Source of the DNA: Hydrogenothermaceae bacterium
GTDB taxonomy: Bacteria; Aquificota; Aquificia; Aquificales; Hydrogenothermaceae
NCBI GenBank assembly: GCA_026418455.1
Contig: JAOABH010000003.1
Location: 310,001 to 374,000, forward strand
DNA: 64,000 bases
Reading direction: 5' to 3'
Position 1 is the stretch's first letter, and each line of letters begins with the position of its first letter. Shown piece by piece: positions 42 to 11,181 of this stretch. The notes under the pieces were generated by a model that did not search any database, was not told the DNA's origin, and saw only the letters and a program-made list of their open reading frames with translations. The position numbers and the translations under genes are program-made.

Positions 42-266
42 ATGTATTATGTTGCTGAGACTAAAGTAGATAAATGTTCTACTTATAAATGTAACCAGTG
101 TGTTTTATTCTGCCCTGAACCAAACACTCTTATGTTTTTAAAAGAGAAAAATTTTGCCTATGTGAATCAAGCAAGATGTAAAGGTTGTGCTATCTGTGTT
201 TATGTTTGTGGTGATCTTTTAAAGAGAAACTGTGTAGAGATGGTTATGGCAACTGTATCTGAATAG
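42..266 (+). CDS. 2x[4Fe-4S] ferredoxin-like delta subunit of a 2-oxoacid:ferredoxin oxidoreductase
   Basis: This 74-residue protein has two four-cysteine clusters: C12-x4-C17-x2-C20-x3-C24-P, then C-x2-C-x2-C-x3-C in the second half. That fits a small electron-transfer subunit carrying two [4Fe-4S] centres. It is clearly paralogous to the 78-residue protein at 7493, with the same MYYVAE start and CNQC/CKGCA motifs. The latter opens a complete pyruvate/2-oxoacid oxidoreductase operon, so this copy probably belongs to a second oxidoreductase lying upstream of the window. The ribosome binding site is aaggagga and a terminator-like hairpin follows. It could instead be a free ferredoxin, but the sequence pairs it with the oxidoreductase. 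Confidence 0.85.
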   Translation: MYYVAETKVDKCSTYKCNQCVLFCPEPNTLMFLKEKNFAYVNQARCKGCAICVYVCGDLLKRNCVEMVMATVSE

Positions 267-326: not shown

Positions 327-614
327 ATGGACAAAGTTGAATTTTTAAAACAATTGCAACAGAGAATTGAGAACTCATCCGTTTTACCTGATGTGGAACT
401 TGAAGTTAACTTCTTTGATGAAAACGGGAATGTAGTAGAAAAACCGGCTATCTTGGTTAAGTATTTTCCAACAGAAAGTGATGTTAGAGAGAGAACTATA
501 GTTATATCTCCATCTTTATATGAGAAAACTGTTGATGATGCTTATAACTTTATTACATTTCAGATAGAGCAGTTTGAAGAAGAGATAGATAGTGTAGAGT
601 TTAGTGGTGAATAA
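327..614 (+). CDS. Small acidic protein of unknown function at the head of the DAB operon
   Basis: About 95 residues, strongly acidic, with no signal peptide or membrane segment. I do not recognise the family. The start is taken at ATG 327, seven bases after a strong ggaggga; the in-frame TTG at 312 lies in that ribosome binding site and is unlikely. The 3' end overlaps the GTPase gene at 604, so the two are probably co-translated. Its place as first gene of the operon suggests an assembly or regulatory role for the carbon pump, but that is inference from position only. Confidence 0.7.
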   Translation: MDKVEFLKQLQQRIENSSVLPDVELEVNFFDENGNVVEKPAILVKYFPTESDVRERTIVISPSLYEKTVDDAYNFITFQIEQFEEEIDSVEFSGE

Positions 615-1533
615 GAAAGCATACATCTTTACCGGGTATCTTGGAAGTGGTAAAACTACCTCTATGGTTAAATCCATAGAGGAATTTTTTAAAGATAAGA
701 AAGTCTTAGTTATCGTTAATGAGTTTGGTGAAGTTGGTATTGATGGAAAAGTTCTATCAGCTGAATTACAAGGTCAGGGAGTAGTAGAGTTAAATGAGGG
801 TTGTATCTGCTGTGTTTTATATGATGAGCTTAATAAGGTATTAAGTGATATACAATCTAAGTATGATTTTGATTACCTTTTTATAGAAACTTCTGGACTT
901 TCTGAGCCATTTCCTATATACTCTGCCTTGGTATCCTTGGGTTACGATGTTGAAAGTGTTATCTGTCTAATAGATAGCTTAAATTATGAAAAGTATAAAG
1001 ATGATGATGTATTTAAATATCAGATAGGCTCTGCAAATATAATAGTTCTAAATAAAATTGATCTGGTGGAACAATCAAAAATAGAATCTATAAAAAATGA
1101 GATATTTTCTTTAAAAGAAAAATACAATCTAAAAAATTTTCTTACCGGAGAGTACCTTATTCCCAAGTATGAGCTTATAACTACAACCTATGGTTTTATT
1201 CCTGAGTATGTGTTTACGGAGATAGATCTTCCAATATCAAGAGATGTATCAGCTACGAAAGACGATCACTCCCATAAAGATTATGTTAAAAATGTAGATT
1301 ACTATCCCAATGATGCTTTGTCCTACGATCAATTTATAAAAATTATAAAGAAATTTCCAAAAAATTTGATAAGATCAAAGGGAATCTTGAAATTTAAAGA
1401 TGTAGATGTTCCTTTACTCTTTAACTACACTTATGGAAATTATACGTTTGAAGAGTTTCCTCAAGAAGTGGATAAAGGCATTCTCGTTTCAATATTTTTA
1501 AACGAGCTTAAAATGGTGAGTTGTAAATCATAG
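604..1533 (+). CDS. COG0523/CobW-family GTPase, putative metallochaperone
   Basis: A 309-residue G3E-family P-loop GTPase. Visible motifs are the Walker A GSGKTT near the N terminus, the family metal-binding motif GCICC at about residue 67, the guanine-specificity motif NKID at about 150, and a His-rich stretch (DDHSHKDY) before the CobW C-terminal domain. COG0523 proteins deliver or handle metals, usually zinc or cobalt. Its GTG start (604 or 607) overlaps the end of the acidic-protein gene. Two genes downstream begins dabB-dabA, and DabA needs a zinc ion, so loading zinc into DabA is an attractive role. That partner assignment is inference. A cobalamin role is less likely because no cobalamin genes are near. 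Confidence 0.85.
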   Translation: MVNKKAYIFTGYLGSGKTTSMVKSIEEFFKDKKVLVIVNEFGEVGIDGKVLSAELQGQGVVELNEGCICCVLYDELNKVLSDIQSKYDFDYLFIETSGLSEPFPIYSALVSLGYDVESVICLIDSLNYEKYKDDDVFKYQIGSANIIVLNKIDLVEQSKIESIKNEIFSLKEKYNLKNFLTGEYLIPKYELITTTYGFIPEYVFTEIDLPISRDVSATKDDHSHKDYVKNVDYYPNDALSYDQFIKIIKKFPKNLIRSKGILKFKDVDVPLLFNYTYGNYTFEEFPQEVDKGILVSIFLNELKMVSCKS

Positions 1534-1591
1534 ATTTTTCTTAAGAAAGGTTATATTTTGTCTCTATATTAAAAATTTTTGAGGTGATGAG

Positions 1592-2428
1592 ATGGGTAAA
1601 CAATACTATCCTGATAGAGATACTATCAAATTACAAACAGAGATTTTGAAATCTAAAAGTTTGTTAGAAGAGGATAAGCTCCTTCCATCATTAGATGGTA
1701 AATTTACTCCTTATAGATACTTTAAACATAATGTTTCTATTGAACCTTTGGACAGTTTTTCTTATAAATCTGTTTTACTCTATCCGGAATTTGAGTCTAT
1801 AAAAGAAAAAGCAAGAGTTGTTCCTTATACTGTTCCAATAGAGAGAAATTTTGCTATAGTTGAGCTTCAGGATTTAACTAATGAGAAAAGAATAACAAAC
1901 TTACTTTATGATGCTATATATGAAGGTATACCTATTTCTGATTTAAAGATAGGTCTTGAAATAGTAACTTTAAGGATGTTAGAAGCTGTTAAAGAGGGAT
2001 TTAGAGATATAGTTCTCACAGATAGAGATGTTTTACCTTCCAGAGTGTCTATGCCACTTCCTTTTGTTTTAGCTTTTGCGGAAAGTTTTTTAAAGGAAAG
2101 TGGTATAGATTTAAAGGATATATCTATTTTTATAGAGACTTCAGAGGTTATAAATCCTTTTGAAATTGCAACTTTACTATCTTTAGGCTCTAAGGGAGTT
2201 CATATAAGAGATATAGATGAGGAGTTGGTTGATATTCTTAATAGGTATGTTTTTGATCTTGTGAGAAAAAAAGGATATTCTGACGTACCTGAGTTTGTTG
2301 GATCAAAGAATGTAAAGGTAGTTGGTCTTAAAAACGATTTCTTATCATTAATAAATGCGGATCTCATATCTTCTTTTGAGGTTGAAGGGCTTGCTGAAAT
2401 AGAAAGTTATCTTTTCAGTCAAAAATAA
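1592..2428 (+). CDS. Orphan protein resembling the glutamate synthase central domain
   Basis: 278 residues, soluble, no signal peptide. The middle reads like the central domain of glutamate synthase GltB: EAVKEGF..IVLTDRD, then LPFVLAFAE, then IETSEVINPFEIATLL with SLGSKGV, and later KKGYSDVPEFVGS ending in VVGL. In GltB these match the LSDR, VESGEA, LLIGYGA and SKMGIST..SYRGAQ..EAVGL segments. The amidotransferase and FMN/Fe-S synthase domains of GltB are absent, so it cannot make glutamate alone. It sits between the GTPase gene and dabB with a gaggtgatg ribosome binding site. Homology is by eye and moderately sure; its function in the DAB operon is unknown. Confidence 0.6.
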   Translation: MGKQYYPDRDTIKLQTEILKSKSLLEEDKLLPSLDGKFTPYRYFKHNVSIEPLDSFSYKSVLLYPEFESIKEKARVVPYTVPIERNFAIVELQDLTNEKRITNLLYDAIYEGIPISDLKIGLEIVTLRMLEAVKEGFRDIVLTDRDVLPSRVSMPLPFVLAFAESFLKESGIDLKDISIFIETSEVINPFEIATLLSLGSKGVHIRDIDEELVDILNRYVFDLVRKKGYSDVPEFVGSKNVKVVGLKNDFLSLINADLISSFEVEGLAEIESYLFSQK

Positions 2429-2450
2429 AAATATATAAAGAGGTAAATAT

Positions 2451-4028
2451 ATGAGCAGTGTTGTATTTCTGATACCATTTATCCCCATAGTTATAGCTGC
2501 ATTAATTCTGTTCATAGACTCTAAAAAGGTAATTCCTAAAATAAGTATTTTTTTTTCTCTCATAATAGTAGGATTAAGTATATATGGAACATATCAACAA
2601 TTTAAGACAAATCAACCTATCATCTCAGAAAATTTATTGCTTAGCTTTGATAGATTATCTTCTATACTTACTTTGTATGTAGCTATATTGGGAATAGTAA
2701 TAAGAAAATACTCAACTAAGTATATGTGGGATGAAATAGGCTATAAAAGGTTCTTTATATTGTTGAATTTTATATTTAGTTCTATATACTTTTTACTTAT
2801 GGCTAACCATCTTTTATTGACTGTAATGGCATGGATAGCTTTAAGTCTTTCTCTTTACTATCTTATATCTTTTAGATCTGATTCGAAATCGGCTACATAC
2901 TTTGGAAGTATAACTCTATGGATACATAGATTAGGAGATTTACTGTTTGTATTGGCTATGATAATGATAGTATCAAAACATAAAACTCCTTATTTATCTG
3001 AGCTTAAAAATATATGGTTAAACGGTAATTTTGATCTTGAATATTCTGCAATTCTACTGGTTTTAGCAGCAATGGTAAAATCTGCCATTATTCCTTTTCA
3101 TATATGGCTACCTTATACCTCAGAAGGTCCGACTCCTGTTTCTGCATTGATGCATGCCGGAATTGTTAATGTGGGAGGTATTATACTTAATAAATTTGCT
3201 TATATCTTTATACATACAGAATATGCTTTAAATTTAGCTTTCATATTTGGTCTTATTACCGCAATTATAGGATCCTTAATTATGCTTACAATGCCAGATG
3301 TTAAGAGAGCTCTTGGATATTCTACAGTTGGTCAAATGGGTTATATGATAATGGAAGTTGGAGTAGGTGCCTTTAGCCTTGCGATTTACCATCTTATGGT
3401 TCATGGTATATTTAAGGCTACATTATTTCTTGAGTCTGGAAATGTAATACATCAAGCAAGAAAAGAACCTAATATAACTAAATCTGTCTCTTATAAAATC
3501 TTCCTTGAAGAAGAAAATAAATTTAATAAAAACCTTAATCTTGTGATTATAGCCTTAACAACAGCTCTTGTTTTATATACTGTTATAGAGTTCCTGTTAA
3601 AACAGGATCTTTCAAACTATTATGCAGCCTTAATATTTTTGGCTTTCGGCTGGTTAGCAAGCTTTCAGCTTTTTAGTACTTTCTTTAAAGTTTCCAAAAT
3701 ACAATCCTTAGGGATAATACTGTCTCTTATAATCTCTTTCTCTATCATAGTTTTGATATACTCATTTTTAGGTCTTGCTTTTGAAAAGTATCTTTACGGG
3801 GATAATTATAAGAGACTTTTTGAAGCAGCAAATCTATCTTTTGGTTTAATAGCATTAGCAGTAGTATTTTTACTTTTCTCAGCAGTGTTTATGTGGTTTT
3901 TGTCATACTACTCTACATTTAGCGAAAATGGAGAGAAAATTAAAAGATTGATATCAAAAATTTATAAACTTCTCTATGAGGAGTTATATTACAGAAAGTT
4001 TATACTTAAGTTATTTAAGATGGATTAA
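2451..4028 (+). CDS. dabB: DabB, proton-conducting membrane subunit of the DAB inorganic carbon pump
   Basis: A 525-residue integral membrane protein of the NuoL/MrpA antiporter family with about 14 hydrophobic segments. The hallmark stretch is present: a channel lysine in MVKSA, then PFHIWLP, then the GPTPVSALMHAG signature, then KRALGYSTVGQMGYM. In DAB systems this subunit is thought to couple cation flow to the DabA reaction. The match to DAB rather than complex I rests on the dabA gene 0.6 kb downstream and the absence of other nuo genes. It follows the GltB-like gene by 22 bases. Its C-terminal part is divergent, and the next gene encodes a small membrane protein that resembles a piece of the same family. 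Confidence 0.88.
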   Translation: MSSVVFLIPFIPIVIAALILFIDSKKVIPKISIFFSLIIVGLSIYGTYQQFKTNQPIISENLLLSFDRLSSILTLYVAILGIVIRKYSTKYMWDEIGYKRFFILLNFIFSSIYFLLMANHLLLTVMAWIALSLSLYYLISFRSDSKSATYFGSITLWIHRLGDLLFVLAMIMIVSKHKTPYLSELKNIWLNGNFDLEYSAILLVLAAMVKSAIIPFHIWLPYTSEGPTPVSALMHAGIVNVGGIILNKFAYIFIHTEYALNLAFIFGLITAIIGSLIMLTMPDVKRALGYSTVGQMGYMIMEVGVGAFSLAIYHLMVHGIFKATLFLESGNVIHQARKEPNITKSVSYKIFLEEENKFNKNLNLVIIALTTALVLYTVIEFLLKQDLSNYYAALIFLAFGWLASFQLFSTFFKVSKIQSLGIILSLIISFSIIVLIYSFLGLAFEKYLYGDNYKRLFEAANLSFGLIALAVVFLLFSAVFMWFLSYYSTFSENGEKIKRLISKIYKLLYEELYYRKFILKLFKMD

Positions 4029-4040
4029 AGTGGAGGTGGT

Positions 4041-4604
4041 ATGGATATCTATGTATCACTCTTAGGTATTACTTTAGTAGTCTTTTCAATATTCTCTTTG
4101 TATAAAAGCTACAGCTTTATAAGAGTTCTTGTTCTTTATGTTTTAGCAAACTCTCCGGTTTTTTTTATTATCAATGAAAAGATGTATTATGGACTGTCAT
4201 TTTTTACAACAGTAGGTCTGTATTTAGTTATAGTGGAGTTTATTAAGAAAACTTATAAAACTGATGTATTTTTAGGGATAGAAGGTTTAGTTTTATCATC
4301 TCCTAAGCTTTCTATCTTTGTAAGAATAGTTTTACTGATGATGGCAAACTTTCCACCATTTTTAAATTTTAGCGTTGTGTTTAACTATCTATTAAACATT
4401 GGGCTTTCTATAAATACTATTTATATATTAACTCTTCTTTTGTTTAACTTTATGATATTTTCAAAAATGACTAACAAAATTCTCTTTGGTAAACCAAACA
4501 AAAATTTGATATATAAAGAACCAGATATGAAGTATATCATTTTAATGTCCTTTTTATCATTAACAAATCTGATATTAGGAATACTTTATCTATTGAGCCT
4601 TTAA
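4041..4604 (+). CDS. Mini antiporter-like membrane protein between dabB and dabA
   Basis: 187 residues, almost entirely hydrophobic, with about six membrane segments. I do not recognise it as a named protein. The middle (MMANFPPFLNFSVVFNYLL) and a later KILFGKPN resemble the part of NuoM/NuoN/NuoL subunits that usually reads LPPFSGFV.EF..L and, after the next helices, ..FFGEP. This suggests a detached fragment of an antiporter-like subunit. The gene lies 12 bases after dabB and 11 before dabA, so a third membrane subunit of the DAB complex is the simplest reading. Two-gene DAB systems described so far do not need such a protein. Confidence 0.7.
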   Translation: MDIYVSLLGITLVVFSIFSLYKSYSFIRVLVLYVLANSPVFFIINEKMYYGLSFFTTVGLYLVIVEFIKKTYKTDVFLGIEGLVLSSPKLSIFVRIVLLMMANFPPFLNFSVVFNYLLNIGLSINTIYILTLLLFNFMIFSKMTNKILFGKPNKNLIYKEPDMKYIILMSFLSLTNLILGILYLLSL

Positions 4605-4615
4605 GCGGGGGTATA

Positions 4616-7456
4616 ATGATGAATTTATTAGATGGTGTGAAAAACGCAACAGAATTTCTTCCAAAATATTGGCCTTTAACTATGTTTGTTCACCATAACC
4701 CTCTACATGAGTTTGAGGATATGCACTTCAAAGATGCTTTAAAGAGAGCTTCTAAAATTTTCAATACAGATTTATATATGGATCCTTCCTATTATGTAAA
4801 TCTCTATAAAAGTGGAATAATCAGGAAAGATATACTTGAAAAAAACATATCTCAATTTTTAGATTCAAACGGCTTTGATGTAAGTAAGTATAAAGTAAGG
4901 AAGTTTATGGTAGATTTAAGTCCAAATTGGTTAAGTCTTAAATACGATTACAATCTCAATAGTAATTTAGATATCTACCAAACTCTAAGAGAAACTATTA
5001 TTTCAGATAAAATGTATAACAATCTTGATTTACTATTTGAAGAACTTATAAATAATTACAGCTTTAGTAAACTTTTAGATATCATCTTTGACCAAAATAT
5101 ATACCAGTTGTTTTATAACGAAGTTGTTGAGTTTGTTTCTAGATTTTTAGATGAAGGACAGGCTAATATAACCCTTCCCTTTAGAGAAAAAGGGATGTGG
5201 GACTGTTTTTTGCTGTTTGAAGGAAAATCTTTTGATGTTGAAGACATATTAAAAACTTTCCAAAGGGAGATAAGTCCTCGTGATATAGAAAATTACGTTA
5301 GGAGACTGCTTGTAGACTTTTTCGGATGGGCGTCTTTTGTAAAGTATAGGGAGAAAACACCTTATTATCCATATCAGGAGGAAAATCCGGCAGATTTATT
5401 AAGCTTTGTTTCCATAATTTTATACTTTGAGCTTAAATACATTAGAAAACTAAATAGAACTAATATAAGAAGCTATGATGACCTATATGAATATTTTAAA
5501 AATAACAAGGAAGAAGTTATTTTGAAACTTCTTTTTTATCGGAGAGAACTGTCTCCAGAGTATATATCAAAAATCTTGAAGAAAAACCCAGATTATAAAT
5601 CTCTGTTTAAAGAGTATACCGAAGACGATACTAATAGGGAAATAGCAAGGATAGCCTATGTAAATGACAGATTATTTAAAATTGAAGACCCATTAGAAGC
5701 ATATCGTTTAATTAAACTGATAAAGGAAGAAGAAGGATATATATGGACAAAGTCTATAGAAGAATCCTATGCTGTTGTGTATGGTAATGAATTTCTTAGG
5801 GAGTATAAACTTACTGAAAATCCAAAAGCTGCTGCAGTTTTCTGTGTTGATGTTAGGTCGGAAGCTTTAAGAAGGAATTTAGAGAGGATAGATAACTATA
5901 AAACTTACGGTGTTGCAGGATTTTTTGGGATAAAGGTTGCTCTCATAGAGTTTGATAAAAGTCATGAGCTTTTACTCTGTCCTGCTATGGAAACTCCTGA
6001 GAGAGTTATACTGGAGTTACCTTCTCAAAACACATCAGAGTATGAGAAAAAGAAGGATATTTTATACACTTTGAAAAAAACCTTAGAAAAACTTAAAAAT
6101 AATCCGTATACACCGTTCTTTACGGTAGAAGCTTTTGGTTGGTTGTTTGGATATAATCTTTTTGGGAAAACTCTCTTCCCTAAATATCTGTCAAAATTTA
6201 ATCAAAAGATAAAAGCAAAACCTCCGAAAACATTATACAGTTTGGATAAACTGTCTGAAGATGATGTCCAAAGATACACTGAAAAATTTTTTGTAGAAAA
6301 GATTATTCATTCATTTGAGCTTGAATCTGACCATATATCCTATGAAGAAGCAAAAGATGTTTTAAATAGAATATTAAATGGTAATTTAAATGAAAAGGAG
6401 AAAAGGATATTAGATAAGCATAGAATAAACAGAGATTATTACGGTTATATTAAATACAGATTTTCAAATATGGGATACACTTTAGAAGAACAAGCAAAAC
6501 TTGCAGATAACTTTTTAAACCTTATAGGTATGATAGATAGTTTTCCTTCTTTTATATTTTTGGTTGGACATGGAAGTGAATCAGATAACAATCCTTATGA
6601 ATCTGCTTTGGACTGTGGTGCTTGTGGAGGAAACAGTGGCTATCACAACGTTAGGGCTATGAGTATTATACTAAATAATACAGAAGTGAGAAAGTTGATG
6701 AGTATAAAAATCCCTGAGGACACTATATTTATACCTGCATTGCATAACACCACTACAGACGAAGTTGAGTTTTTTGATGAAGAAGTTATTCCAGACACAA
6801 AAAGGGAACTTTTTGAAGAGATAAAGAGAGATTTTAAGATAGCTTCTGTTAGGACAAGGCAGGAAAGAGTTAAGGTGTTACCTTATGCAGATAATGAAGA
6901 AGATGTTTTGGTAAGGTCTATAGATTGGTCTGAGATGAGACCTGAATGGGGACTTTCCAGTAATATAGGTGTTTTTGTAGGTAAGAGAGAATCCTGTATG
7001 AATTCTGTATTAAAAAACAGATTTTTCTTGCATTCTTATGATTATACGTTAGACCCAGATAACACTGTATTGAAAAGAATACTAAATGGACCATTTTTAA
7101 TAGCACAGTGGATAAATGCCGAACATTACTTTTCTACGGTTAGTAATGAAATCTTTGGATCAGGTTCCAAAGTTTACCATAATGTAGTAGGCAGATTTGG
7201 TGTATTTAACTCTAATTACTCTGATCTGAAAATAGGGCTACCTTACCAAACAGTTTATTTTGAAGATAAAGCTTTTCATGAACCTGCAAGAATAGTAGTC
7301 TTTGTTGAAGCACCGTTACAGAAGGCTGTTGCTGCTGCTTCTGAAACTGATCATCCGATGATGCTTCTCAAAAATGAATGGGTCAGATTGGTGATTATAG
7401 ACAGGGAAAAGAACAAATTATTTTTATTAGACAATGGAAACTTTAATGAATTGTGA
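4616..7456 (+). CDS. dabA: DabA (DUF2309), zinc-dependent CO2-hydrating subunit of the DAB pump
   Basis: 946 residues from the first of two adjacent ATGs (4616, 4619). It carries all four residues known to form the beta-carbonic-anhydrase-like zinc site: C410 and D412 in FCVDVRSE, H652 in VGHGSE and C667 in LDCGACGG. The spacings Cys-x-Asp and His-x14-Cys equal those of the characterised Halothiobacillus protein (C351, D353, H524, C539). DabA with DabB converts CO2 to bicarbonate in one direction, accumulating inorganic carbon. No signal peptide is seen, consistent with a peripheral cytoplasmic subunit. The protein appears longer than proteobacterial DabA. It ends 36 bases before the oxidoreductase operon, and its TGA stop is part of that operon's promoter. 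Confidence 0.93.
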   Translation: MMNLLDGVKNATEFLPKYWPLTMFVHHNPLHEFEDMHFKDALKRASKIFNTDLYMDPSYYVNLYKSGIIRKDILEKNISQFLDSNGFDVSKYKVRKFMVDLSPNWLSLKYDYNLNSNLDIYQTLRETIISDKMYNNLDLLFEELINNYSFSKLLDIIFDQNIYQLFYNEVVEFVSRFLDEGQANITLPFREKGMWDCFLLFEGKSFDVEDILKTFQREISPRDIENYVRRLLVDFFGWASFVKYREKTPYYPYQEENPADLLSFVSIILYFELKYIRKLNRTNIRSYDDLYEYFKNNKEEVILKLLFYRRELSPEYISKILKKNPDYKSLFKEYTEDDTNREIARIAYVNDRLFKIEDPLEAYRLIKLIKEEEGYIWTKSIEESYAVVYGNEFLREYKLTENPKAAAVFCVDVRSEALRRNLERIDNYKTYGVAGFFGIKVALIEFDKSHELLLCPAMETPERVILELPSQNTSEYEKKKDILYTLKKTLEKLKNNPYTPFFTVEAFGWLFGYNLFGKTLFPKYLSKFNQKIKAKPPKTLYSLDKLSEDDVQRYTEKFFVEKIIHSFELESDHISYEEAKDVLNRILNGNLNEKEKRILDKHRINRDYYGYIKYRFSNMGYTLEEQAKLADNFLNLIGMIDSFPSFIFLVGHGSESDNNPYESALDCGACGGNSGYHNVRAMSIILNNTEVRKLMSIKIPEDTIFIPALHNTTTDEVEFFDEEVIPDTKRELFEEIKRDFKIASVRTRQERVKVLPYADNEEDVLVRSIDWSEMRPEWGLSSNIGVFVGKRESCMNSVLKNRFFLHSYDYTLDPDNTVLKRILNGPFLIAQWINAEHYFSTVSNEIFGSGSKVYHNVVGRFGVFNSNYSDLKIGLPYQTVYFEDKAFHEPARIVVFVEAPLQKAVAAASETDHPMMLLKNEWVRLVIIDREKNKLFLLDNGNFNEL

Positions 7457-7462
7457 TATAAT
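7435..7462 (+). promoter_or_regulatory. Candidate promoter of the 2-oxoacid oxidoreductase operon
   Basis: TATAAT at 7457-7462 is preceded by TGA, giving the extended -10 form TGNTATAAT. A weak -35 (TGGAAA, 7435-7440) lies 16 bases upstream. The TG overlaps the dabA stop codon. The ribosome binding site aaaggaggt follows at about 7478-7486. The operon can thus be transcribed on its own or by read-through from dabA. Confidence 0.55.
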
Positions 7463-7492
7463 TTTAACAAACCTTAAAAGGAGGTCTATATA

Positions 7493-7729
7493 ATGTATTA
7501 CGTTGCAGAAGTCATAAATGATGAGTGTACCAAATACAAATGTAATCAGTGTACCCTCTTCTGTCCAGAACCAAACACTTTGATGTATATCAACTCTCCT
7601 AATGAAAGGCATGCTTATGTTGCAACAGCAAGATGTAAAGGATGTGCTTTATGTGTATATGTGTGTAGCAATCTCTTAAAAAGAAATGCTATTCATATGA
7701 TTATGCCTGAAGTTCATGCTAACGTATAA
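7493..7729 (+). CDS. porD: Pyruvate/2-oxoacid:ferredoxin oxidoreductase, delta (ferredoxin) subunit
   Basis: 78 residues with two four-cysteine clusters (C-x4-C-x2-C-x3-C-P and C-x2-C-x2-C-x3-C) for two [4Fe-4S] centres. It carries electrons between external ferredoxin and the catalytic beta subunit. It is the first gene of a five-gene operon whose later members are unmistakable alpha, beta and gamma subunits. It is a close paralogue of the protein at 42-266 but has a slightly longer linker between the clusters. Substrate (pyruvate, 2-oxoglutarate or another 2-oxoacid) cannot be settled from this subunit, so the por symbol is a best guess. Confidence 0.85.
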   Translation: MYYVAEVINDECTKYKCNQCTLFCPEPNTLMYINSPNERHAYVATARCKGCALCVYVCSNLLKRNAIHMIMPEVHANV

Positions 7730-7750
7730 ATTAAGTTTGGAGGTTTAAAA

Positions 7751-8320
7751 ATGGCTAAATTAGGACCAATGGGATTTTCACCATATCCAACAGCTGTCAA
7801 TGAAGGTGTATTAAACCCGCCAGAAGGAAAAGCTCTACTTTTTGATGAGATAGTTGATGAAGAAGTTGCTATGAGAGAAGCTGCAAAAGCTATGCTTACA
7901 AGAGAAAATCCAACAATATTCCCAGGGCCACAGGTTTTATATGCGTGGAGTGAAGACGCTAAGAAAAAGGCTAAGTTAATAAAAGAGTTAGCTCAAGTTT
8001 TAGGTGCAAAGATAATCCCTATGTATGATTACAGACCTAAGTATCCAAAAATAAACCCTGAAGTTGAGATAAACCCTAACCACCCTAACTTAACAATATG
8101 GCATAACAATATAAAAGCTTGTATATTTGTTGGAGTTCACTGTCACTATGCTAACGTTGCTCTCAAAATTATAAGAGCAGAAACTGACTGCTTTACAATA
8201 GCCCTATGTAGTATGGAAGGACATGAAGATGCTATGATAACTTTGAGGGATCAACATCCTGAAGAACTTGAAAAATTTATAAAGATAGCTAAAGAAGTTA
8301 AAAAAGAGTTAGGAATATAA
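7751..8320 (+). CDS. porE: 2-oxoacid:ferredoxin oxidoreductase, epsilon-type accessory subunit
   Basis: 189 residues, soluble, with no cofactor motif that I recognise. It is placed here by position: second gene of the operon, 21 bases after the delta subunit, with an excellent ggaggt ribosome binding site. Aquificales enzymes of this class (the Por and For enzymes of Hydrogenobacter) have five subunits, the fifth being a protein of about this size not found in the usual four-subunit enzymes. Its contribution to catalysis is unknown to me. Two nearby histidines and a cysteine (FVGVHCHYANV) could bind a metal. Confidence 0.7.
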   Translation: MAKLGPMGFSPYPTAVNEGVLNPPEGKALLFDEIVDEEVAMREAAKAMLTRENPTIFPGPQVLYAWSEDAKKKAKLIKELAQVLGAKIIPMYDYRPKYPKINPEVEINPNHPNLTIWHNNIKACIFVGVHCHYANVALKIIRAETDCFTIALCSMEGHEDAMITLRDQHPEELEKFIKIAKEVKKELGI

Positions 8321-8324
8321 TGAT

Positions 8325-8366
8325 AAACATCATTGAAATATCTTTCGTATACAGAGATGTTTTTTT
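8325..8366 (+). terminator. Possible attenuator hairpin between epsilon and alpha subunit genes
   Basis: AAACATC (8325-8331) can pair with GATGTTT (8356-8362), closing a 24-base loop, and the 3' arm runs into seven Ts (8360-8366). This is shaped like a weak intrinsic terminator in the middle of the operon and may set a higher level of the small subunits than of the large ones. The long loop makes it uncertain. Confidence 0.35.
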
Positions 8367-8389
8367 ATAAAATTTAGGAGGTAACTATC

Positions 8390-9586
8390 ATGTCAAATGT
8401 ATCAACTCAAGAGGTTCAATATAATAAATCTGGTCAGAGAATTGTATCCCCTGACTATCTTCTCTTCGAAGCACCAAGAGAAAAATTCTTTATGACTGGT
8501 TCTGAGGCAGTTAAAGAAGCTGTAAGAAGAGCATCAGTAGATGCTTCTGTTTCATATCCGATAACTCCTCAGTCTGAAGCTGCTCACCTTATAGGTGAAC
8601 TTTGGGTTGAAGGTTATGTAGGTGTTTACTTTAGGGGAGAGTCAGAGTTTGGTGTTATGTCTGAAGTTGCAGGATGTGCCTTAGCTGGAGCAAGAACTAT
8701 AACAACCACTTCTGGACCTGGAACTCTGAGAGCTTTTGAAAACTTCCCTATGTGGGCTGGAACGAGAATACCTGTTCAGCTCGTTTTAATGGCAAGAGGT
8801 GTAAACGCTCCTCTTTCAATTCAGCCAGACAACCTTGAAGTAGGATTTTTATTGGATACAGGATGTATGATATGGTATGCAGAGAACGCTCAGGATCTTT
8901 TCGATATGATCCTTGCAGGTTTTGTTGTTGCAGAACATCCATCTGTTCACGTTCCGGTAATTACCGTCGTTGATGGTTTCTTTGTTTCACATACAAGAGA
9001 AGCTATAATGCTACCACCAGATGATATAGCTCTACCTCCTTATAACCCGTATAAAGCACCAATGCCAGTTATAGATCTTGAAGCACCTCCAGGAAGATTT
9101 TTAAGAGACCCGTTTGTTATGAAATCTAATTATATATCCTATGCAACTCACGCAAGCTGGCAGTTTGAAGTTAGAGCAGCAATAGAAAGATCAAGACCTT
9201 TTGCTAAACACTACTTAAGAGGTTTAGTAGAGGAGTTTGGAAATCCTGATGCAGATATAGTTTTCGTAGCTGCTGGAACAGCTGCATCACAGGCTAAGGA
9301 AGCTGTAAGACTTCTAAAAGATGAAGAAGGAATAGATGCTAAAGTTGTAAAACTAAAAACCATAAGACCTTTCCCTTACGATGAGTTAAGAGCAGCTGTT
9401 AAAAATGCCAAGTATATATTCGTTCCTGAGTTTAACGTTGCTGGATGGTTAGAGAGAGAAGTAAGAAAGGCTCTTTATAAATACTCAGATGCAGAAATAA
9501 TAGGAGCACCAAGGGTTGCAGGTGGAATGACAATGCCTGCTGAAGTTATAGTAAGTGAAGTTTTAAGTAATTTGAGAGTTAAGTAA
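8390..9586 (+). CDS. porA: Pyruvate/2-oxoacid:ferredoxin oxidoreductase, alpha subunit
   Basis: 398 residues. It has the pyrimidine-binding fold typical of the alpha subunit: GSEAVKEAVRRA near the N terminus, the YPITPQSEAAHLI motif that contacts substrate and TPP, GPG at about residue 108, and a C-terminal domain II with KTIRPFP. With beta it forms the TPP active site that reductively carboxylates acetyl-CoA to pyruvate (or an analogous reaction) using reduced ferredoxin. The gene starts 69 bases after the epsilon gene with a strong aggaggt site and is followed 18 bases later by the beta gene. In an rTCA-cycle organism this is a CO2-fixing enzyme. Confidence 0.92.
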   Translation: MSNVSTQEVQYNKSGQRIVSPDYLLFEAPREKFFMTGSEAVKEAVRRASVDASVSYPITPQSEAAHLIGELWVEGYVGVYFRGESEFGVMSEVAGCALAGARTITTTSGPGTLRAFENFPMWAGTRIPVQLVLMARGVNAPLSIQPDNLEVGFLLDTGCMIWYAENAQDLFDMILAGFVVAEHPSVHVPVITVVDGFFVSHTREAIMLPPDDIALPPYNPYKAPMPVIDLEAPPGRFLRDPFVMKSNYISYATHASWQFEVRAAIERSRPFAKHYLRGLVEEFGNPDADIVFVAAGTAASQAKEAVRLLKDEEGIDAKVVKLKTIRPFPYDELRAAVKNAKYIFVPEFNVAGWLEREVRKALYKYSDAEIIGAPRVAGGMTMPAEVIVSEVLSNLRVK

Positions 9587-9604
9587 TTTAAGGAGGTTTT
9601 AGAG

Positions 9605-10465
9605 ATGTCTTTTAAAGTTTTTCAGATAAACGAAGAGTTTTTAGATGTAATGCCAAAAGAGATTGTAGAGCTTCAAGAAAATGCTACGTGGGGAAATCCT
9701 AAGAGAGGTGTTATGGATCTTCCTTTCCATAAGGAACTTATAGAGGAACACTCTCTTTGTGCAGGTTGTCCAGAAGCTGCAGCATTGAGATATATAATGG
9801 CTTCTATTCCTGCTCCTGAGGATACTGTTATAGTGAACTCAACAGGTTGCACATCTTTAGTTTTCCCTCATATCGCTATGCACACAATTCACTCACTATT
9901 TGGAAACCAAAATGCAGTAGCATCAGGAATTAAAAGAGTTTTAGAGTATAGATATCCTGATAGAGTTAAGGATGTAATTGTCCTTGCTGGTGATGGAGCT
10001 ACTGTAGATATCGGACTTGACTGTACTTTACAGTCATTTTTCAGACAGGAGAAGATAACAACTATATGTTTTGACAACGAGGTTTATGCTAACACAGGTG
10101 GACAGGAAAGTGGAATGACACCTAAGGGACATGTGTTTAAGATGGCACCGAAAGGTAAGCAGTTTGAAAAAGTCCCAATGTGGCAGTTAGCAATAGATTC
10201 TGGATGCCATTACGTTGCAAGATTGACAGTTTCATCTCCAAAGAGAGTTGAATCTGTGATTAAAAAAGCTGTTTATGTTGCAAGAGAGGTAGGTCCTACT
10301 TACATTCACCTCTATACCCCTTGTATCCTTGAGATAGGGCTTAACTCAGATCAAGGTCTTGAAGAGATGAGAAGTAAAGATAAAGAAAGATTTGAGTTCT
10401 TCGAGTATGTATCACCTCAAGCTCAGGAAGTTATCGAAAAACGTAAAGCGGAGGGCTTACTATGA
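9605..10465 (+). CDS. porB: Pyruvate/2-oxoacid:ferredoxin oxidoreductase, beta (TPP) subunit
   Basis: 286 residues. The TPP/Mg motif is clear: LAGDGATVDIGLD followed by the FDNEVYANTGGQ segment. The proximal [4Fe-4S] cluster ligands begin with CAGC in the first sixty residues, with a third cysteine in STGCTS. The protein decarboxylates or carboxylates the 2-oxoacid and passes electrons to the delta subunit. Its stop overlaps the gamma gene by four bases (ATGA), which implies translational coupling and a one-to-one complex. Confidence 0.93.
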   Translation: MSFKVFQINEEFLDVMPKEIVELQENATWGNPKRGVMDLPFHKELIEEHSLCAGCPEAAALRYIMASIPAPEDTVIVNSTGCTSLVFPHIAMHTIHSLFGNQNAVASGIKRVLEYRYPDRVKDVIVLAGDGATVDIGLDCTLQSFFRQEKITTICFDNEVYANTGGQESGMTPKGHVFKMAPKGKQFEKVPMWQLAIDSGCHYVARLTVSSPKRVESVIKKAVYVAREVGPTYIHLYTPCILEIGLNSDQGLEEMRSKDKERFEFFEYVSPQAQEVIEKRKAEGLL

Positions 10466-11181
10466 AAAGAAAAAGAGTCAACATCAGGATGCCTGGATTA
10501 GGTGGGCAAGGTGCTGTTACCGCTGCTCATATAATAGCAACTGCTGCGGATTACCAAGGTTACTATGCAGTATCAAACCCATTCTTCGGTGCTGAAAAGA
10601 GGATGGCTCCGGCTGAAAGTTATGCCAGAATAGGAGTTGAGCCGATATTTGACAGAGGAGAAGTAGTTTACCCTGATGTTATCATGGTGTTCCACAATCA
10701 CGTTATAACTATGGGTAAATCTTACACGATGCCATTTTATTCTGGAATAAAGAAAAATGGTTTAATAATAATAAACTCAGAGGAAGATCTTTTATCTCCT
10801 GGAGATAAAGCTTATCTTGACTCCCTCGGAGTTAAGGTTTATAACTTCCCAGCAACAAAGTTTGCAGTAGAGCAAGCTGGAACTGAGCTGGCAACTAACA
10901 TGGCTATGGTAGGAGCTCTCTTTGGTTGTATAGGTTCTGTAGGTCTTGAAGCTATTGAAGAAGGAATAAAGGCAAGATTCCTGAAAAAGTTTGTTGCTTC
11001 CGGTGGAACAGCATCTCTTGACTCTGCTCTTGAAAGAAAGTTTAAGAAGAAACTTGAACTTATCGAGAAAAATTTAAATACTGCAAGAGCGGCCTACGAG
11101 TTAGCATCTTCATGGGCAAAATCCCAAGGAATAGAAGATTTCTTACCACCACCTCCAAACAAAAAAGTAGAAGTAGCCTAA
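10462..11181 (+). CDS. porG: Pyruvate/2-oxoacid:ferredoxin oxidoreductase, gamma subunit
   Basis: 239 residues. The family signature MPGLGGQGAVTAAHIIA opens the protein, followed by NPFFGAEKRMAPAESYARI; in homologues this subunit completes the CoA-binding region. The last residues are proline- and charge-rich (LPPPPNKK). It is coupled to the beta gene through an ATGA overlap and is the last gene of the operon, ending ten bases before a GC-rich terminator shared with the converging relA/spoT gene. Confidence 0.92.
   Translation: MKRKRVNIRMPGLGGQGAVTAAHIIATAADYQGYYAVSNPFFGAEKRMAPAESYARIGVEPIFDRGEVVYPDVIMVFHNHVITMGKSYTMPFYSGIKKNGLIIINSEEDLLSPGDKAYLDSLGVKVYNFPATKFAVEQAGTELATNMAMVGALFGCIGSVGLEAIEEGIKARFLKKFVASGGTASLDSALERKFKKKLELIEKNLNTARAAYELASSWAKSQGIEDFLPPPPNKKVEVA

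Follow-up and report, generated by a model that had tools for sequence, protein, structure and literature searches.

The closest described relatives of the system treated here are the two DAB complexes of Halothiobacillus neapolitanus. DAB1 is encoded by three genes (DabA1, hneap_0908, DabB1), i.e. it consists of a NuoL-like DabB, a small membrane protein and DabA, and is linked to Calvin-cycle autotrophy. DAB2 (PDB 9rd0) has two subunits and employs the proton-motive force to drive one-way hydration of CO2 to bicarbonate (HCO3-), with no reverse reaction (PMC13144422). Occurrence of DAB in organisms using the reductive tricarboxylic acid (rTCA) cycle is not new either. Aquifex aeolicus, which fixes carbon through this cycle with five-subunit 2-oxoacid:ferredoxin oxidoreductases (OFORs), possesses DabAB (Aq_863/Aq_866), and DabA is among its most abundant membrane proteins (PMC10052474). 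Moreover, co-location of carbon transporters and carbonic anhydrases (CAs) with rTCA genes was published in 2024 and called yet-to-be-studied (PMC10880623, Fig. 2); the portion of that paper dealing with the co-location mentions neither the five-subunit type nor repeated independent placement nor a loss scar. Here we describe a DAB locus on a stretch of 64,000 nucleotides (subsequently designated the window) from a thermophilic Hydrogenothermaceae bacterium of the phylum Aquificota, i.e. the same phylum as A. aeolicus (contig JAOABH010000003.1; G000:C8:310001-374000, where G000 is the genome of the window).

The DAB of the window resembles DAB1 in its three genes and in its middle protein, which is homologous to that of DAB1, but it resides in an rTCA operon and its DabA belongs to another deep clade (~30% identity to DabA1). 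With DAB2 it shares the zinc site, the Asp-Arg dyad, the finger glutamate and the proton path of DabB, while it differs in having a third membrane subunit and in the greater length of its DabA. We assign a probability of roughly 0.6 to the reading that this locus encodes a DAB1-type vectorial carbonic anhydrase inside an rTCA operon, which would trap carbon and supply HCO3- to an aerobic-type rTCA cycle. In the openly readable literature, we did not find the specificity for five-subunit OFORs, the repeated independent assembly, the conflict between trees, the loss scar or the assignment of the accessory genes that are reported below.

Composition of the pump and its operon

Genes were called from open reading frames in combination with Pfam and NCBIfam profile searches (Table 1). 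DabA matched 9rd0, the sole solved DabA structure, and DabB matched DabB2 and NuoL. To assess conservation, we looked up the counterparts of residues named in the DAB2 structure paper (PMC13144422), nine in DabA and eleven in DabB. All nine are kept in DabA, namely the zinc ligands C410, H652 and C667, the Asp-Arg dyad D412-R414 as well as S415, H710, D715 and E505, the last of which corresponds to the glutamate of the membrane finger (E444 in DabA2) according to a profile alignment that is weak at this position. Likewise, DabB retains all eleven residues, i.e. S231, H235, K285, S291, H314, H318, K322, D163, R160, K210 and I129, the isoleucine being present in place of the complex-I glutamate.

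A preliminary description of this DNA had placed dabB and dabA in one run with four accessory genes. The run itself was confirmed, but membership in the pump could be upheld for the 187-aa membrane protein only, whose gene alone among the four travels with dabAB. This protein shows homology to the C-terminal extension that DabB carries as a fusion in many Aquificaceae (hhalign probability 98.9%, E 2e-17) and to the middle gene product of the Halothiobacillus-type DAB1 (94.7%, E 6e-8), while the control comparison with the DabB core yielded 0.2%. Fused proteins of ~760 aa comprising DabB and the third membrane subunit are encoded in the Aquificaceae loci L050, L058, L065 and others. Fusion to DabB in this family argues that the 187-aa protein is a DAB subunit. 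Judged by homology, the pump proper is a three-gene DAB of the DAB1 type comprising dabB, the 187-aa gene and dabA. The 95-aa gene, cobW and the 278-aa gene were rejected as DAB accessories, as they are kept in genomes lacking DAB at that site.

The pump had further been described as lying between two OFOR modules, a complete five-subunit enzyme on one side and an orphan ferredoxin subunit on the other. The former is borne out, with all five genes on one strand (7493-11181; subsequently designated OFOR2), and the position between two modules holds as well. The ferredoxin gene at 42-266, however, is no orphan but ends a second complete five-subunit OFOR (OFOR1) that is cut by the window edge; its delta, alpha, beta and gamma genes are found at 8468-12029 of L002, the stretch that reaches upstream of the window. 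Ahead of them, the contig carries mdh, fumA, fumB, sucC, a Uma2-like gene and sucD, all of which are named according to our reading of the translations. The full order, mdh-fumAB-sucCD-OFOR1-(95 aa)-cobW-(278 aa)-dabB-187aa-dabA-OFOR2, is colinear over ~18 kb, with dabB, the 187-aa gene, dabA and OFOR2 all on the same strand. In the part of the run that falls into the window, intergenic gaps measure -11 to 69 bp and most genes are preceded by a site resembling a ribosome-binding site. A single ~18 kb transcription unit extending from mdh to porG is plausible, since mdh (start at 3323 of L002) is preceded by a terminator-like hairpin at 3203-3219 and a promoter-like site at 3263-3291, in this order. 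In the promoter scan, sites were no commoner than in shuffled sequence (61 vs 67), and this combination just 5' of mdh is its sole signal of note, which we regard as suggestive.

Association of DAB with five-subunit OFORs

Across a sample of 136 Aquificota genomes, DabA was detected in 52 and the beta subunit of a five-subunit OFOR in 77. The OFOR is present in 50 of the 52 DabA genomes, the remaining two being drafts, as compared to 27 of the 84 others. Since kinship inflates p-values at the level of genomes, we did not rely on them and counted genera instead: DAB occurs in 11/16 genera with OFOR and in 0/14 other genera (Fisher p = 9e-5), and all 11 DAB genera possess the OFOR. Within Sulfurihydrogenibium, four genomes have both systems and three have neither. 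Linkage, i.e. a distance of up to ~10 kb between dab and OFOR genes, was scored in the 38 genomes with readable context and was observed in 31 of them, representing nine genera, compared to a chance expectation of ~3% per genome. Comparison of gene order in other Aquificota, which the preliminary description had proposed as a check, is thereby in favor of the association in the majority of cases.

Beyond Aquificota, five-subunit OFOR genes are present at 13 of 16 Campylobacterota loci that carry this DAB type, while the other three are located on contigs of ~12 kb or less. An OFOR operon of the same type is known from Sulfurimonas pluma, to which it moved from the Aquificales (PMC10066037); a term search of the main text of that paper returned no inorganic-carbon transport, in contrast to the presence of DAB in these campylobacterotal loci. 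Among 347 Campylobacterota genomes, a five-subunit OFOR was found in just two, both with adjoining DAB, and two more genomes of this sample carry a DAB of the other clade. At other DAB loci, nearly all from Pseudomonadota, OFOR genes were nearby in 0 of 49 cases.

Linkage of dab and OFOR genes exists in at least five arrangements. The dab genes lie between the 278-aa gene and OFOR2 in colinear orientation (G000 and G097, with the same arrangement downstream of dab in G100), are inverted between cobW and OFOR2 (the G065-G076 group), are located behind OFOR1-95aa(-cobW) in Aquificaceae, where DabB is fused or longer, or are placed after OFOR2 (G103), and several further orders are present in Sulfuricurvum, Sulfurimonas and Sulfurovum. 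The DabA tree splits into two deep clades (SH-aLRT 100). One unites the window with Hydrogenobaculum, other Hydrogenothermaceae and Campylobacterota, and the other (clade II) comprises Aquificaceae and Pseudomonadota. Unlike in the DabA tree, the enzyme of the window groups with that of Aquificaceae in the OFOR1 tree. Nearly the same OFOR operon thus carries different DABs, so that the association was re-established repeatedly. Two Sulfurihydrogenibium genomes, G098 (L052) and G103 (L060), possess clade II DABs nested among those of Aquificaceae. They were presumably acquired by horizontal transfer, and the DAB that G103 received sits directly behind OFOR2.

Such transfers, together with that of five-subunit OFORs into Campylobacterota (PMC10066037) and the frequent clustering of operons of one pathway, could also mean that the adjacency is an accident of shared regulation or transfer, in which DAB and OFOR hitch-hike on a mobile autotrophy cassette without functional coupling. 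We consider this improbable, since disagreement between the DabA and OFOR trees and the differing arrangements indicate that the pair was assembled several separate times rather than carried as a block, and since the 49 other DAB loci lack a nearby OFOR.

The two OFORs and their attendant genes

OFOR1 and OFOR2, which would be the two main enzymes of CO2 fixation in the rTCA cycle, are paralogues with subunits that are pairwise 46-64% identical. Both clusters encode alpha, beta and gamma subunits, a CO_dh-like delta subunit and a ferredoxin-type epsilon subunit, which is characteristic of the Aquificales-type five-subunit OFOR. The order E-D-A-B-G of OFOR2 equals that of the A. aeolicus pyruvate enzyme. 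Going by gene order, OFOR2 would be the pyruvate enzyme and OFOR1 the 2-oxoglutarate enzyme.

In all Aquificota OFOR1 loci that were examined, the 95-aa gene is found 3' of OFOR1 epsilon, irrespective of the presence of DAB, and relatives of its product are encoded near five-subunit OFORs in Sulfuricurvum. The structural model predicts an alpha/beta fold (pLDDT 83), for which no significant match was obtained in the PDB, and the protein is a candidate for an unknown OFOR partner. The cobW gene follows behind the 95-aa gene in most Aquificota loci, including those of the DAB-less genomes G036, G037, G052, G058 and G078. The 278-aa protein is restricted to the Sulfurihydrogenibium group; it is free-standing, resembles the central domain of glutamate synthase and is encoded between the two OFORs, where its gene is retained in G078 and G098 in the absence of DAB at this site (L053, L061). 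Further upstream, the Uma2-like gene, read from its translation, lies inside sucC-sucD (L002 6941-7471). The pyruvate OFOR cluster of A. aeolicus includes a Uma2-like gene, aq_1194 (PMC10052474).

Table 1. Features of the locus, with positions as numbered in the window.
Feature	Position	Strand	Remarks
OFOR1 epsilon (2x4Fe-4S)	42..266	+	Last gene of OFOR1, order D-A-B-G-E; 64% identical to second epsilon subunit
95-aa protein	327..614	+	No Pfam family; belongs with OFOR1, not DAB; C-terminal tail EEIDSVEY-GGE near-invariant
COG0523/CobW-type GTPase (cobW)	604..1533	+	PF02492 1.1e-41; linked to OFOR1; metal chaperone by family
278-aa protein, match to glutamate synthase central domain	1592..2428	+	PF04898 3.9e-10
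dabB, NuoL-like proton-channel subunit	2451..4028	+	PF00361; all checked DabB2 proton-path residues kept
187-aa membrane protein, ~6 predicted transmembrane segments, putative third subunit of DAB1 type	4041..4604	+	hhalign homology
dabA, zinc beta-carbonic-anhydrase-like subunit	4616..7456	+	PF10070 3.2e-196, 654 bits vs cut-off 25
OFOR2 epsilon (ferredoxin), porE-like	7493..7729	+	
OFOR2 delta, CO_dh family	7751..8320	+	PF02552 5.5e-57; typical of five-subunit OFORs
OFOR2 alpha	8390..9586	+	PorA_Arch 2.2e-50
OFOR2 beta (thiamine pyrophosphate)	9605..10465	+	PorB 4.4e-38
OFOR2 gamma	10462..11181	+	57% identical to OFOR1 gamma; position conserved in relatives

Proposed role of the pump in the rTCA cycle

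We infer that CO2 is hydrated to HCO3- in one direction at the zinc site of DabA, the driving force being protons that enter via DabB. Formation of HCO3- would trap inorganic carbon in the cytoplasm, and DAB would also recapture CO2 that otherwise leaks out. The HCO3- would go to the biotin carboxylases that act next to the OFOR products. According to PMC10880623, OFORs use CO2 as substrate whereas biotin carboxylases use HCO3-, and in some Aquificota a biotin carboxylase carboxylates 2-oxoglutarate with HCO3-. Demand for HCO3- exists in the genome of the window, which encodes three biotin carboxylases, one of them beside a pyruvate-carboxylase-B-like gene. Since OFORs consume CO2, DAB yields HCO3- and biotin carboxylases consume HCO3-, the pump would act as a carbon trap and supplier of HCO3- rather than as a direct feeder of CO2. 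The preliminary description had proposed that the operon feeds CO2/bicarbonate directly to rTCA carboxylation. Of this, the association of DAB with OFOR persists, being recurrent and present in two phyla, whereas direct feeding lacks support; at most, the HCO3- made by DAB goes to the steps that use this substrate and to the inorganic carbon pool of the cell.

A direct contribution could nevertheless be envisaged if imported HCO3- was reconverted to CO2 near the OFORs, similar to a carboxysome without a shell. Physical linkage of the pump genes to CO2-using enzymes would agree with this scenario, and a gamma-CA-like protein encoded in the genome could dehydrate HCO3-. However, DAB2 makes HCO3- and cannot run backwards (PMC13144422), the operon holds no carbonic anhydrase gene and, as stated in PMC10880623, CO2 would leak in the presence of free cytoplasmic CA, rendering this explanation unlikely. 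A function mainly as ion/HCO3- symporter or as proton sink for pH/Na+ balance, with an incidental operon position, is very doubtful: the homologue MpsAB of Staphylococcus has been proposed as a Na+/HCO3- symporter (discussed in PMC13144422) and behaves differently from DAB2, so that function varies in the family, but every checked proton-path and zinc residue of DAB2 is kept and the three-gene DAB1-type set is that of chemoautotrophs.

Several observations also weigh against trapping of carbon and supply of HCO3- by the pump. In 7 of the 38 genomes with readable context (G001, G030, G032, G033, G034, G051 and G098), dab and OFOR genes are unlinked, i.e. the situation that the preliminary description had named as counter-evidence exists in a minority. 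Among these is the complete genome G001, which is probably that of A. aeolicus and whose DabA, unlike that of the window, belongs to clade II. Further, 27 genomes possess a five-subunit OFOR in the absence of DAB, so that DAB is not required alongside this enzyme. One of them, the genus-mate G078, has the whole operon with a spacer of 197 bp between the 278-aa gene and OFOR2 (L053 11278-11474) instead of the pump. A remnant of the DabA C-terminus is still encoded there, covering residues 918-946 (69% identity, E 3e-11) and, in addition, residues 827-838, and the spacer includes a 43-bp stretch identical to the end of dabA and the OFOR2 leader in the window. As judged from this scar, G078 once had the pump and deleted it secondarily, and the pump is dispensable in some conditions. 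Moreover, genes for an alpha-CA and a gamma-CA-like protein are present in the window's genome as well; HCO3- may thus come from a source other than DAB, which cannot be regarded as the only enzyme of hydration. Finally, OFORs need CO2 and not HCO3-, and in extracts of A. aeolicus their activity was lost in air (PMC10052474), making the link to oxygen an indirect one.

Within ~6 kb of the alpha-CA gene, a biotin carboxylase is encoded together with its pyruvate-carboxylase-B-like partner (G000:C8:120593-126584). A gamma-CA-like gene is nearly universal, being detected in 122/136 genomes with E. coli YrdA as query. Beta-CA was found in just 2 of the 52 DabA genomes. It is present in 3 of 77 genomes with five-subunit OFOR vs 48 of 59 others, and this near-exclusion also holds within Sulfurihydrogenibium. 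Among OFOR genomes, beta-CA occurs in 2/50 with and 1/27 without DAB. The exclusion tracks the OFOR type and not DAB, and the idea that DAB is the only cytoplasmic carbonic anhydrase was dropped. SulP transporters are absent from the family of the window, which ruled out SulP as a replacement explaining loss of DAB in G078. A SulP-family match starting ~650 bp 3' of dabA exists in an Aquificaceae genome, possibly Thermocrinis (G053:C1:1188653-1189753).

Five-subunit OFORs are the forms employed for aerobic growth of H. thermophilus and for oxic life of S. pluma and Nitrospira (PMC10066037, PMC8115632). A carbon-concentrating role of DAB for an oxygen-exposed rTCA cycle would fit this pattern, DAB being the carbon-concentrating part of the cycle as run with five-subunit OFORs. 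In its widest form, for which we would not quite offer even odds, this idea holds that an rTCA cycle exposed to oxygen concentrates carbon by means of a module of DAB and five-subunit OFOR, which was put together several times independently in Aquificota and Campylobacterota and represents the rTCA counterpart of the pairing of DAB and carboxysome in Calvin-cycle bacteria.

To our knowledge, carbon-concentrating mechanisms have been studied almost solely for Rubisco. That two deeply divergent DAB lineages came to lie repeatedly and independently next to the same CO2-fixing enzymes indicates that carbon supply has been under selection in the rTCA cycle too, namely in hot or oxygen-exposed environments with potentially scarce CO2. 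The locus provides a concrete, testable gene set and one answer to the juxtaposition reported in 2024. Taken together, separate origins of the pairing on several occasions in two phyla point to a role of the pump in providing carbon to the rTCA pathway.

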